Of a DNA stretch of 64,000 nucleotides, positions 17,977-47,743 are shown piece after piece. The translations under genes were made by a program, and so were the position numbers. Position 1 is the stretch's first letter. The number at the start of each line of letters is the position of its first letter. The notes below the pieces were generated by a model. That model had not been told where the DNA came from. It was given only the letters and a program-made list of their open reading frames with translations, and did not search any database. The DNA comes from Phycisphaerae bacterium (lineage in GTDB: Bacteria > Planctomycetota > Phycisphaerae > Phycisphaerales > Phycisphaeraceae): NCBI GenBank assembly GCA_030432595.1, contig JAUIGU010000010.1:1-64000 (forward strand), given 5' to 3'.

Positions 17977-18004
17977 CGCCAAGACGCCAAGCGGCCAAGA
18001 CACC
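17977..18004. repeat. GCCAAGAC tandem repeat
   Basis: Three copies of GCCAAG spaced by two bases lie between the helicase stop and the chosen trpF start. The last copy runs into AGGAG, which could serve as the trpF ribosome binding site. Confidence 0.65.
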
Positions 18005-25694: not shown

Positions 25695-25708
25695 CCTTGC
25701 TGGGGGCT

Positions 25709-25837
25709 GGGGTCTGGGGCTTGGGGTTGGGCCAGAAACGTAAAGGTCCGCCCATTACTTTTTTCGATCATTCGCTGAATGGGGATACAAACCCAAGCGG
25801 CACGAAGCTGCAGACCAAACCCCAAGCCCCAGACCCC
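25709..25837. repeat. Long inverted repeat of GGGTCTGGGGCTTGGGG type
   Basis: A perfect 20-base arm at 25709-25728 pairs with 25818-25837 across an 89-base loop. Each arm is itself a tandem of TGGGG-type units. It fills the space between the lipoprotein stop and pgi and could terminate the former or fold in the pgi leader. Confidence 0.8.
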
Positions 25838-25884
25838 AGACCCGCCCCACCCGGCCGCCACTCAACCCCAAACCCGAGCACGCC

Positions 25885-36961: not shown

Positions 36962-37327
36962 GCGGTGCAACCCACTCCGTAAAAGACGTGTCAGGGATCA
37001 GTGGTCAGTGGTCAACTGTTTAGCGGGCGACGCGCAGCGTCCCGCGGGGTCAGGGTCAGAAAGCGGTCGAAATCGGGGCGAGAATCACCCGGGATACGGG
37101 CCTTTTCGACATTTCTCGAATCCGGCCCTTGATACGCCCGGCGGCAGGGCCGGTTCGCGGGATTGCGAAAGAATTCTCAGCCGAGCCCAAAACGACGTAG
37201 GCGGTGGAAAACCTGTTCCAAACACGCAGGCACGGCAAACTGGGAAAAGTGGTTTCAGGCATCATTTCAAGTCTTTCTCGCCGGTTTCGCACGCCGGATC
37301 GCCCGCCCCGCCCCCGTCACCACTGCG
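36962..37327. other. Gap between the ECF sigma gene and its neighbour
   Basis: About 366 bases with no gene. It contains a short direct repeat, three copies of GGTCA/GATCA-type units (CAGTGGTCAGTGGTCA, 36999-37014), and otherwise unique sequence. Promoter or processing signals for the downstream gene could lie here, but none is clear. Confidence 0.45.
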
Positions 37328-37945
37328 TCACACCTCGGCCCCGAGCGCGGGATATCGGGCCTTCCACAGCTCGGCAAAGGTGCCCACCGCCGCGTGCAGC
37401 CGGGACTTCACCGTGCCCAGCGGGATGCCGAGCATCTCGGCGATTTCCTTGTAGGCCAGCCGCTGGAAATACGCGAGCAGCAGGACTTCGCGGAGGTGGT
37501 CGGGCAGCTCGCCGACGATCCCGCGGACCAGCTCGCGGACCTCCTCGCTGTCGGCGGTGTCGTCGGGCATGGGGAGGTCGGCCTCCATGAGGTCAACGAA
37601 ACTCGTGCCGCCCTCGCCGTCCACCGACGCGTCGAGCGGGACCGCCTTGTGGCGTTTGTTTCGGCGGAGGTAGTCGCGGGCCTTGTTCGCCCCGATGGTG
37701 AACAGCCACGGCTTGAAACGTTTGGTCACGTCAAACGTGTCGGCCGAGATGTGGACCTGGAGGAACGTCTCCTGGAACAGGTCGTCCGCCGCCGCCCGGC
37801 TGTTGACGAAGCGCAGCAGGAAGTGGAACAGCTCGCCCTGGTAGCGGGAGATCAGCTCGGCCAACGCGGGCTCGGTGCCCGTGCGGTAAGCGCCGACGAG
37901 CTGCTCGTCGGTCAACTCTCCCAGATTCGCACCCTCAGACGACAT
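37328..37945 (-). CDS. ECF-type RNA polymerase sigma factor
   Basis: 205-residue extracytoplasmic-function sigma factor. Region 2 spans about residues 15-90 (ALAELISRYQGELFHFLLRF, DDLFQETFLQVHISADTFD, FKPWLFTIGANKARDYLRR). Region 4 spans about 140-200 (LPDHLREVLLLAYFQRLAYKEIAEMLGIPLGTVKSRLHAA), with its helix-turn-helix. A 50-residue acidic linker separates them. The gene downstream encodes a membrane protein that may hold it inactive. Target promoters cannot be read from this window. Confidence 0.95.
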   Translation of the reverse strand: MSSEGANLGELTDEQLVGAYRTGTEPALAELISRYQGELFHFLLRFVNSRAAADDLFQETFLQVHISADTFDVTKRFKPWLFTIGANKARDYLRRNKRHKAVPLDASVDGEGGTSFVDLMEADLPMPDDTADSEEVRELVRGIVGELPDHLREVLLLAYFQRLAYKEIAEMLGIPLGTVKSRLHAAVGTFAELWKARYPALGAEV

Positions 37946-37987
37946 GGCCGGATTGTACGGCCCGGGAGTGGGTTGGGTTCGGGGCAG

Positions 37988-38246
37988 ATATCACAGAGGA
38001 CACAGAGACACGGAGGCACAGAGCGGGCAGTTGAGCCGCAGATTTCGCAGATGACGCAGATGGGAACAGGCAAAACAGGATGGGCAGGATGAGTCAGGAT
38101 GACGCGATTCATTTTAAAACGAGGACATCAAGCCATCCTGTTCCATCCTGATCATCCTGTTTGGATTGCTTCATCAATCTGCGTCATCTGCGATATCTGC
38201 GGCGGTTCTTCTCTGTGCCTCCGTGTCTCCGTGCCCTCTGTGATAT
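37988..38246. repeat. Triple-nested long hairpin built from three heptamer-repeat families
   Basis: Three inverted-repeat pairs are nested exactly. Outer arms of 36 bases (37988-38023 with 38211-38246) have CACAGAG-type units and two mismatches. Middle arms of 27 bases (38035-38061 with 38177-38203) have CGCAGAT units and one mismatch. Inner arms (38071-38102 with 38133-38164) have CAGGATG units. The loop is 38103-38132. It lies 16 bases after the argC stop, so it would be in the argC 3' untranslated region. Confidence 0.9.
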
Positions 38247-38261
38247 GCCGGAAAAGCAAAC

Positions 38262-39353
38262 TCACAACAACCCCAGTGTCTCGTCCAGCTCGAAGACCGC
38301 GTTCATGTTCTGGATCGCTTGGCCGGACGCGCCCTTGATGAGGTTGTCCTCGGCGACGAACACGACGACCGTCGGCCGACCTTCGGCGCCGGTGGTGACG
38401 CGGCGAACGGTGACGTCGACGAAGTTGGTGCCGGCGACGTGTTTCGTGTTGGGCAGAGCATCCCCGGCCTCGCGGACGCGCACGAACGGCTCGTCGGCGT
38501 ACGCGTCCAGCAAGGCCTCGAACAGTTCGTCCTGCGTGACCTGCTCGTCGGCGGGTTCGAGGTAGATGGTTTCGAGGATGCCGACGTCCGTCGGGAGCAG
38601 ATGCGGGACGAAGAGCGGGTCGATCTGCCCGTCGCTTTTTCCCGCGACGCGGCAGAGCGTCTGCGCGATCTCGGGCTGGTGGCGGTGGCCGCCGATGGTG
38701 CCGTACGGGCCGTACGCTTCGTTGACCGAGATGAAGTGCGTGGCGGGTTTGGCGCTGCGGCCGGCGCCGCTGGTGCCCGACGAGGCGTTGATGACGATCG
38801 GCTCGGGCTTGACGAGCGCGTGCGTGAGGAACGGCGCGACACCGATCGCCGCGGCGGTGGGGTAGCAGCCGGGGTTGGCGACGAGCGTCGCTCCCGGAAG
38901 ATCATCCCGGAAGAGTTCGGGGAGGCCGTATACCGCGCTGGGCAGGTTGGCGGCGTCGAGGTGCGGCGTGTGGTAGACGCGCTCGTAGCGCTGCGCGTCG
39001 TTGAGCCGGTAGTCGGCCGAAAGGTCGACGACGCGCACGCCGGCGTCGAGCAGCGGCGGGACGTACGCCATCGCCGCGGTGTGCGGCAGCGCGAGGAAGG
39101 CGACGTCGGCATGCTCCGCGATCGCGCCGGCGTCGATCGGCCGGCACTGCGCGGTCTCGTCGTCGAGCTTGCCCGTCAGCCGGGGGAACTCGTCGCGCAG
39201 GTCGGGCAGCTCGTCGCGGTGCGAGGCGAGGTAGGTCAGCTTCGCCGCGGGGTGGCGGTGCAGCAGCTCGACCAGGTGGACGCCGGTGAACCCGGTGGGC
39301 CCGACGATGGCGGCGCGGATGGGGTCGGTCTGGGGCGCGGGGGTGGCGGGCAT
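38262..39353 (-). CDS. argC: N-acetyl-gamma-glutamyl-phosphate reductase
   Basis: NADP-dependent reductase of arginine synthesis, acting on N-acetylglutamyl phosphate. The start at 39353 gives 363 residues beginning MPATPAPQTDPIRAAIVGPTGFTGVHLVELL, the expected NADP fold. The catalytic cysteine is in VANPGCYPTAAAIGVAPFL. SSGTSGAGRSAKPATHF and the late segment GQAIQNMNAVFELDETLGL are also characteristic. A longer frame extends 35 codons upstream but lacks family similarity. No other arg gene is adjacent. A triple-nested hairpin follows its stop. Confidence 0.95.
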   Translation of the reverse strand: MPATPAPQTDPIRAAIVGPTGFTGVHLVELLHRHPAAKLTYLASHRDELPDLRDEFPRLTGKLDDETAQCRPIDAGAIAEHADVAFLALPHTAAMAYVPPLLDAGVRVVDLSADYRLNDAQRYERVYHTPHLDAANLPSAVYGLPELFRDDLPGATLVANPGCYPTAAAIGVAPFLTHALVKPEPIVINASSGTSGAGRSAKPATHFISVNEAYGPYGTIGGHRHQPEIAQTLCRVAGKSDGQIDPLFVPHLLPTDVGILETIYLEPADEQVTQDELFEALLDAYADEPFVRVREAGDALPNTKHVAGTNFVDVTVRRVTTGAEGRPTVVVFVAEDNLIKGASGQAIQNMNAVFELDETLGLL

Positions 39354-39529
39354 GTCCGGGGATTGTGCGAGGCCCGGCCGGGTAGAGCAATGTTGGCTCC
39401 GCGATTCGTGCAGTTGTTGGGGTTTCCAGCCGGATCGGCGGGCGTGGCAAACGACCACGATAAACCTGCCACATTGGCATTCACAATCTTCGTAAACCCT
39501 TGTTAAAGCTCAATTCGGGCGTTTCTGAT

Positions 39530-42137: not shown

Positions 42138-42213
42138 AACCACCGATGAACTCAGATAGACACCGATCCAGATGGAAACTTCATCCGCGTTCATCCGTGT
42201 CCATCGGTGGTTT
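42138..42213. repeat. Hairpin of CACCGATG/GATGAAC-type repeats reaching into truD
   Basis: Left arm 42138-42176 and right arm 42180-42213 pair imperfectly with almost no loop. Each contains several CACCGAT or CATCCG(T/C) units. The right arm lies within the 3' end of truD and supplies its last codons (KPPMDTDERG). Confidence 0.8.
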
Positions 42214-47614: not shown

Positions 47615-47743
47615 GAGTCGAAAGGCGAAAGTCAAAAGGTGTAAGCGAAATATCGAACGTTTGAGGATGGGCGAGTCAGGGGGAGAGAAAGCGTCCGGCC
47701 AAAGCGTTTCCACTTTCGCCTTTGGACGTTGCCCTTTCGACTC
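47615..47743. repeat. Inverted CGAAAGGCGAAAGTC repeat in the rpsB-tsf gap
   Basis: GAGTCGAAAGGCGAAAGT on the left (47615-47632) has counterparts in CACTTTCGCCTTTGG and CCCTTTCGACTC on the right (47711-47743). The arms are in the same heptamer style as other gaps and enclose about 75 bases. In the rpsB-tsf transcript this would be a large internal hairpin. Confidence 0.7.

Follow-up and report, generated by a model that had tools for sequence, protein, structure and literature searches.

The palindrome at positions 37988-38246 of the analysed stretch of DNA (64,000 nucleotides, referred to below as the window) was probably formed by three miniature palindromic mobile elements that became stacked by successive insertion, and these elements would be ORF-less relatives of hairpin elements carrying a GxxExxY gene. 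The nested architecture was found genome-wide, it recurred, and whole hairpins were present at some orthologous sites and missing at others. The comparison of related species suggested that the tips of older hairpins had repeatedly received new copies.

The hairpin between the argC-type and sigma-factor genes

The palindrome was composed of three nested pairs of arms. The outer left arm of CACAGAG units (family B) was located at 37988-38023 and comprised 36 nt, with two mismatches to its right arm at 38211-38246. The middle left arm of CGCAGAT units (family C) occupied 38035-38061 (27 nt, one mismatch to the right arm at 38177-38203), and the inner left arm of CAGGATG units (family D) occupied 38073-38103 (31 nt, six mismatches to the right arm at 38132-38162). 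The right arms were assigned by arm pairing and by a repeat finder, which returned the same B, C and D pairs (I1, I5 and I2, respectively), the inner arms of I2 being longer. The symmetric nesting of the three cores and the 36-base outer arms with two mismatches, as described previously from the sequence alone, were confirmed by arm pairing. The loop of 30 bases named in that sequence-only reading was found as a loop, but its size had to be corrected to 28 nt between the arms as set (38104-38131), or 32 nt between the innermost cores. A long stem was also predicted for the RNA, with 103 base pairs in the folding instead of roughly 95.

The 259 nt of the hairpin folded as RNA with an energy of -161.1 kcal/mol. 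With the flanks included (311 nt), the value was -177.3; the corresponding figure for 100 dinucleotide shuffles was -101.4 (sd 4.7), which gave a z of -16.15, and no shuffle folded as low. An ECF sigma-factor gene on the minus strand (37328-37945; Sigma70_r2 3.5e-18) began 42 bp away from the hairpin, and the stop codon of an argC-type gene on the same strand (38262-39458, true start uncertain; Semialdhyde_dh 2.9e-24) was 15 bp away, in line with the earlier placement of the hairpin downstream of argC. The Rfam scan of positions 37000-39000 yielded three matches, all far below the gathering score, and no rRNA match.

The arms were inverted and held about three heptamers each, with a period of about 9 bp. 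The frequencies of the cores in the window were also determined. CACAGAG was present six times versus 6.55 expected, which was no excess, and five of the six occurrences were inside the hairpin. CGCAGAT was recorded 15 times versus 10.4 expected, and 9 of 100 shuffles reached as many, so that no clear excess was seen, while CAGGATG was over-represented (15 versus 6.6 expected). The above-chance feature of the heptamer cores was their arrangement.

An ORF-less hairpin of the same style, built from a further family (E), was found at 42138-42212 as palindrome I15 of the repeat finder. Additionally, an unpaired CGCCAAG half-array was observed at 17977-17999, just past a gene end, and was apparently a decayed or half element.

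Nested hairpins in the genome and at orthologous sites

Pattern searches of the own genome (G000) for four cores led to the fetching of 44 stretches, with seven weak two-mismatch places left out. Including the window copy, 38 paired hairpins were obtained, and 7 further stretches carried an unpaired arm only. Five repeat families, whose period was near 9 bp, made up the hairpins and had one common style, namely a 7-base core followed by about two variable bases, with about three units per arm. This style was shared by the B, C and D cores with at least five other families, and the three families could no longer be regarded as unrelated, as had been supposed. The fifth family, E, had the core C(A/G)C(C/G)GAT; it enclosed C in L040 and C>D in L055.

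Eleven of the 38 hairpins were single-family, and two of these (L054 and L062) additionally had an unpaired E arm outside. The remaining 27 carried two to four families, and all 27 were nested and none side by side, although in at least eight of them (L035, L037, L041, L045, L058, L066, L068 and L069) one arm was lost or degenerate and the level was read from the remainder. The deepest nesting, A>B>C>D, was found in L037 and L039. Hence, single-, double-, triple- and quadruple-nested forms were all present within one genome, which supported the earlier proposal of repeated insertion at the apex, and a random assembly with cores un-nested elsewhere in the genome was not borne out by this catalogue.

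According to a hand count of the 27 multi-family hairpins, the nesting order was constrained: A was outside B in 8 of 8 cases and D was innermost in 14 of 14, while A and C nested either way (A outside C in 11, C outside A in 5). The remnants between levels had medians of 16.5 and 15 nt with outliers of up to 94 nt (24 hand-read pairs), and in sum they were comparable to the single-level loops of 17-108 nt (9 hand-read). With family D set aside, the outer arms were less matched than the inner ones in 9 level pairs and more matched in 8; with D included, the counts were 10 and 16, respectively. Arm divergence yielded no age order of the levels.

It was also observed that small ORFs other than GxxExxY were held in the loops of L044 (2041-2852), L062 (1969-2533) and, in a congener, L260 (847-1223), and it looked as if loops also take up passenger genes. 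A minus-strand ORF of L044 (2151-2414) gave a Pentapeptide_4 match below the cut-off, and the profile search with its ORF 2356-2799 returned no match. For the ORF in the L062 loop nothing was found in Pfam and one NCBIfam model was below the cut-off; the ORF in the L260 loop gave a DUF3916 match, also below the cut-off.

Outer hairpins shared between species were observed with different or missing inner hairpins. The flanks of 24 elements of the own genome were searched in the congener (G001); 20 loci were compared and 16 spacers were read, the other four being left out on account of a one-sided match, a large distance or a rearrangement. Nine of the 16 congener spacers were short (5, 11, 18, 29, 49, 55, 96, 108 and 144 bp) and by eye lacked such a hairpin, when their counterparts in the own genome were 178-673 bp long. 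Three spacers contained a longer unrelated sequence, and in two the position was taken by a different hairpin (L060/L263 and L069/L269). In the last two, a like outer hairpin enclosed other contents. An A hairpin was present in both members of the pair L044/L260, its loop being filled by a C hairpin and a pentapeptide-like sequence in the own genome and by a 112-aa ORF in the congener; in the pair L038/L266 a C-like hairpin was present in both and the D hairpin was absent in the congener. These sites, at which the outer hairpin enclosed another inner one or none, lent further support to insertion at the apex. Intermediate forms at the locus of the window copy itself, for which a search of relatives had been recommended, were not encountered: the same-site comparison for argC returned 40 loci, and in the 10 of Phycisphaera type that were read (L081-L089 and L118) there was no hairpin and the downstream genes differed.

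Further, the elements of a genome from a second genus (G036) were traced into G009, G041, G045 and G048, and 15 sites (S1-S15) were read. One outer hairpin with different or missing inner hairpins was recorded at six of the 15 (S3, S6, S7, S8, S11 and S13). At S6, B stood alone in G045, as B>C in G041, and again as B>C in G036, where the right side was duplicated; the left loop text was similar up to the C junction. Site S3 contained B>C in G036 and B>D in G041, and no hairpin in G048 and G045. At S7, B>C was shared by G036 and G041, B followed by D was found in G048, where the right outer arm had been lost, C and the right B arm were kept in G045, and G009 had none. Site S8 was occupied by A>C in G036 and, in a decayed state, in G048, by A>F in G041, and by a contiguous-7-mer hairpin containing a PF05635 match with one stop in G045. 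The outer hairpin of S11, of CGCGAAG type, was combined with C in G036, with a CACAGAT version of C in G045 and with D in G048; G041 and G009 had an F hairpin and a D-like one, respectively, at this position, the outer arm being partial or confined to the right, so that the outer hairpin, intact or partial, accompanied inner hairpins of three families across five species. At S13 the outer CACGAAG/CGCGAAG hairpin enclosed C (G036), F (G045) or D (G048), and G041 had a 20-bp spacer without a hairpin.

The remaining sites were less varied. S1, S5 and S9 were in the same state in two species, S1 being a GxxExxY gene between C arms and S9 having a longer C array in G041. S4, S12 and S15 had the hairpin in G036 alone among the species compared. 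S2, S10 and S14 were mixed or decayed, with F hairpins alone in two species at S14. At single sites, the loss of an inner hairpin was indistinguishable from its gain, and no target-site duplication was clearly established at the junctions of the 31 sites read by eye. Clean nesting was broken at L292 and L295 of G036, through a doubling of the right side and through arms arranged in tandem (B C ... B C ... C).

Heptamer arms around GxxExxY genes

The loop of L052, a C-armed hairpin of the own genome, encoded a GxxExxY protein (PF13366 1.3e-35, TIGR04256 2.2e-38), a small member of the PD-(D/E)XK nuclease superfamily. PF13366 was matched in 63 of 101 relatives, at 7 places in the own genome and nowhere in the congener, as well as in 138 of 294 genomes of the phylum. 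All 11 genomes with at least five C-array matches, the own genome among them, had PF13366 (p 0.004 against the 63 of 101 overall).

The presence of arms was assayed by comparing the left flank of a gene with its reverse-complemented right flank against a null. The loci were drawn from the high-scoring part of the PF13366 match lists, with all seven own-genome copies included. Heptamer arms flanked 61 of 63 high-scoring GxxExxY genes in the order (L152 and L159 failed); L152 exceeded the null (11.5 versus 11.0) but had no heptamers and was scored as a failure, which made the count 61 and not 62. Arms were likewise detected at 25 of 27 newly fetched high-scoring loci of the phylum (L387 and L391 failed) and at six of the seven own-genome copies. 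Random placements were above their own null in 3 of 200 cases, and none of the 200 scored 16 or more.

The weak-scoring PF13366 places served as an internal negative control. Arms were present at 2 of 20 (L398 and L399), with L411 (12.0 versus 11.5) left uncounted like L152, so that the number was 2 and not 3. Since arms were mostly absent in this group, the link with arms was limited to the GxxExxY subfamily. The weak-scoring loci (L398-L417) often had one copy per genome and longer frames and were mostly armless, and they may represent a separate chromosomal protein family. Among plasmid records of other phyla, two of eight were above the null (L275, 21 versus 14; L278, narrowly, 15 versus 14). 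In L278, from a Sphingomonas parapaucimobilis plasmid record, the GxxExxY gene at 1031-1459 was annotated between fabD and fabG and had short inverted heptamer arms.

B-type arms enclosed the gene in L151, L153 and L154, while D-type-armed GxxExxY genes were found in other genomes only (L172, L361 and L390). None of the seven PF13366 copies in the own genome was a GxxExxY gene with A or D arms. In a maximum-likelihood domain tree of 60 rows, the base that ends the arm heptamer, either T or G, changed once, whereas label shuffles required 12.8 changes on average and at least 8, and shuffles within genomes reached one change in 2 of 300. A single change was also obtained with 82 rows, of which 18 were T (shuffles: mean 16.5, minimum 13), with 84 rows after two dropped rows had been added by eye, and with 78 rows without hand labels, the labels of L362, L354, L365 and L351 having been assigned by hand. 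Rows without a usable arm label were left out of the trees (3 of 63 and 8 of 90), and the 63-domain tree was poorly resolved in parts, with 26 of 60 inner branches open. Arm type and protein were co-inherited, which shows a unit and not recognition.

Seven alignment columns were invariant in all 63 GxxExxY domains: G21, E24, Y27, D64, E74, K76 and Y92. The invariance of D64, E74 and K76 (D...E-x-K) would be expected of a working PD-(D/E)XK site. The structure comparison returned no solved structure similar to GxxExxY. The protein is mentioned in passing in PMC8934634, and no study dedicated to it was found in the literature searched, from which subscription papers and preprints were excluded.

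Proposed mode of stacking and related elements

It was proposed that a family B hairpin would first have entered the spacer between the argC-type and sigma-factor genes, that a family C hairpin would next have entered the loop of B, and that a family D hairpin would have entered the loop of C last. Such hairpins would transpose, and the GxxExxY nuclease would act, both in cis and in trans, on arms of its own type. The nuclease might open the single-stranded tip of an extruded hairpin, where a new hairpin copy would then be joined in.

An exchange of loop contents was considered as another origin of the nesting. Inner hairpins would then be swapped by recombination or gene conversion between similar-armed hairpins, with no dedicated enzyme involved. 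Sites S3, S8, S11 and S13, having one outer hairpin with different inner ones, were compatible with this, as were the unrelated ORFs enclosed under the same A hairpin in L044/L260. However, an exchange left unexplained the first arrival of hairpins in short spacers (9 of 16 congener sites) and the association of arm type with GxxExxY clade, and it was judged unlikely. It appeared very improbable that hairpins had grown in place, without mobile elements, through slippage or template switching during their replication. Such growth agreed with varying unit numbers, such as those of the C array at S9, and with the duplicated right side at S6, but the same families recurred at unlinked genome sites and different ready-made families, which template switching on a local scale would not bring in, were present at one site in different species. 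The insertion of separate elements is a better fit than template switching to the different inner hairpins seen under a shared outer one.

The hairpins were also short, dispersed, palindromic and ORF-less, as would be expected of REPIN-type elements with REP-associated Y1 tyrosine transposases (RAYTs) as their movers, and two PF01797 matches over the cut-off and one below it were found in the own genome. The three Y1 loci, however, had no heptamer hairpin beside them; L078 and L079 contained two loose A units apiece and L080 contained none, and it was the high-scoring GxxExxY genes that the heptamer arms enclosed instead. Y1/RAYT transposases were disfavoured as the movers on this account, and an origin of this type has hardly any probability in our estimate. 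Finally, the hairpins could be structures useful to the host, such as mRNA stabilisers or processing sites, kept in the spacers by selection. Very stable stems near gene ends would suit this role, but whole hairpins were missing at many orthologous sites, no conservation of the hairpin across species was found at the sites read, and no Rfam family reached its threshold; selection for such a function is a most improbable explanation. Successive insertion of mobile hairpins was retained as the preferred one.

The 23S rRNA intervening sequences (IVS) were the closest known kind, the likeness lying in a small-ORF hairpin positioned at the tip of another hairpin. According to PMC4990558, a stem-loop bearing the S23 gene replaced tetraloops of rRNA helices. 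Both kinds include long hairpins with a small ORF in the loop, and a site at a former helix tip would be common to them. In contrast to the IVS, the present hairpins had chromosomal spacers and other hairpins as their sites, GxxExxY as the enclosed protein and a period of about 9 bp rather than 7, and most of the copies read had no ORF. The window copy lay between the argC-type and sigma-factor genes and not inside an rRNA gene, and a stem-loop at the tip of an older hairpin was seen by comparison at other loci and not for the window copy.

PF05635 (S23, four-helix bundle) was matched in 64 of 101 relatives and at 10 places in the own genome. Inverted flanks above the null were recorded at 27 of 30 high-scoring PF05635 loci, and the arms displayed were mostly contiguous 7-mers. 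The flank test was symmetric in strand, and the count holds for minus-strand loci left unturned. At the 20 of the 30 loci that were scanned, no Rfam family and hence no rRNA was found. Palindromes with contiguous 7-mer arms (GGGGCTG / GTCGAAAG style) were present in the window at 25703-25843 and 47615-47743; their arms resembled those flanking four-helix-bundle genes elsewhere, with no ORF between them.

REPINs are described, in PMC3116915, as short non-autonomous hairpins co-evolving with a protein. The present hairpins resembled them in being short, non-autonomous and tied to a protein, and differed in having no adjoining Y1 transposase, in their heptamer-array arms and in the nesting in tips. 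The likeness to MITEs consisted in ORF-less inverted-repeat elements whose ends are common to an ORF-bearing form; unlike in MITEs, no enclosed DDE transposase was found, the partner was of PD-(D/E)XK type and no target-site duplication was established. Cyanobacterial small dispersed and heptanucleotide repeats are alike in size and location, being tiny mobile repeats of palindromic or heptamer type that lie in spacers; we know of no GxxExxY link or systematic nesting for them. Heptanucleotide repeats also occur in Beggiatoaceae, as stated in PMC4679880. A description of the nested-hairpin arrangement was not found in the literature searched, subscription papers and preprints being outside the search.

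We put forward, tentatively, the possibility of a separate class of bacterial mobile DNA, in which GxxExxY proteins would drive the hairpins, read the heptamer code of their own arms and land copies at the single-stranded tips of extruded hairpins, with stacking of the elements as the outcome. The rRNA IVS would then form a four-helix-bundle branch that targets the tips of rRNA helices. If GxxExxY drives hairpin elements, the function of the protein becomes testable. The nesting would bear witness to a preference for the tips of hairpins that to our knowledge has no precedent in a described bacterial mobile element, although the search was not exhaustive. Such a preference would offer a reason for the location of rRNA intervening sequences at helix tips. 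It would also account for a large class of intergenic repeats; one family alone gave 186 pattern matches in G027 and 168 in G036.
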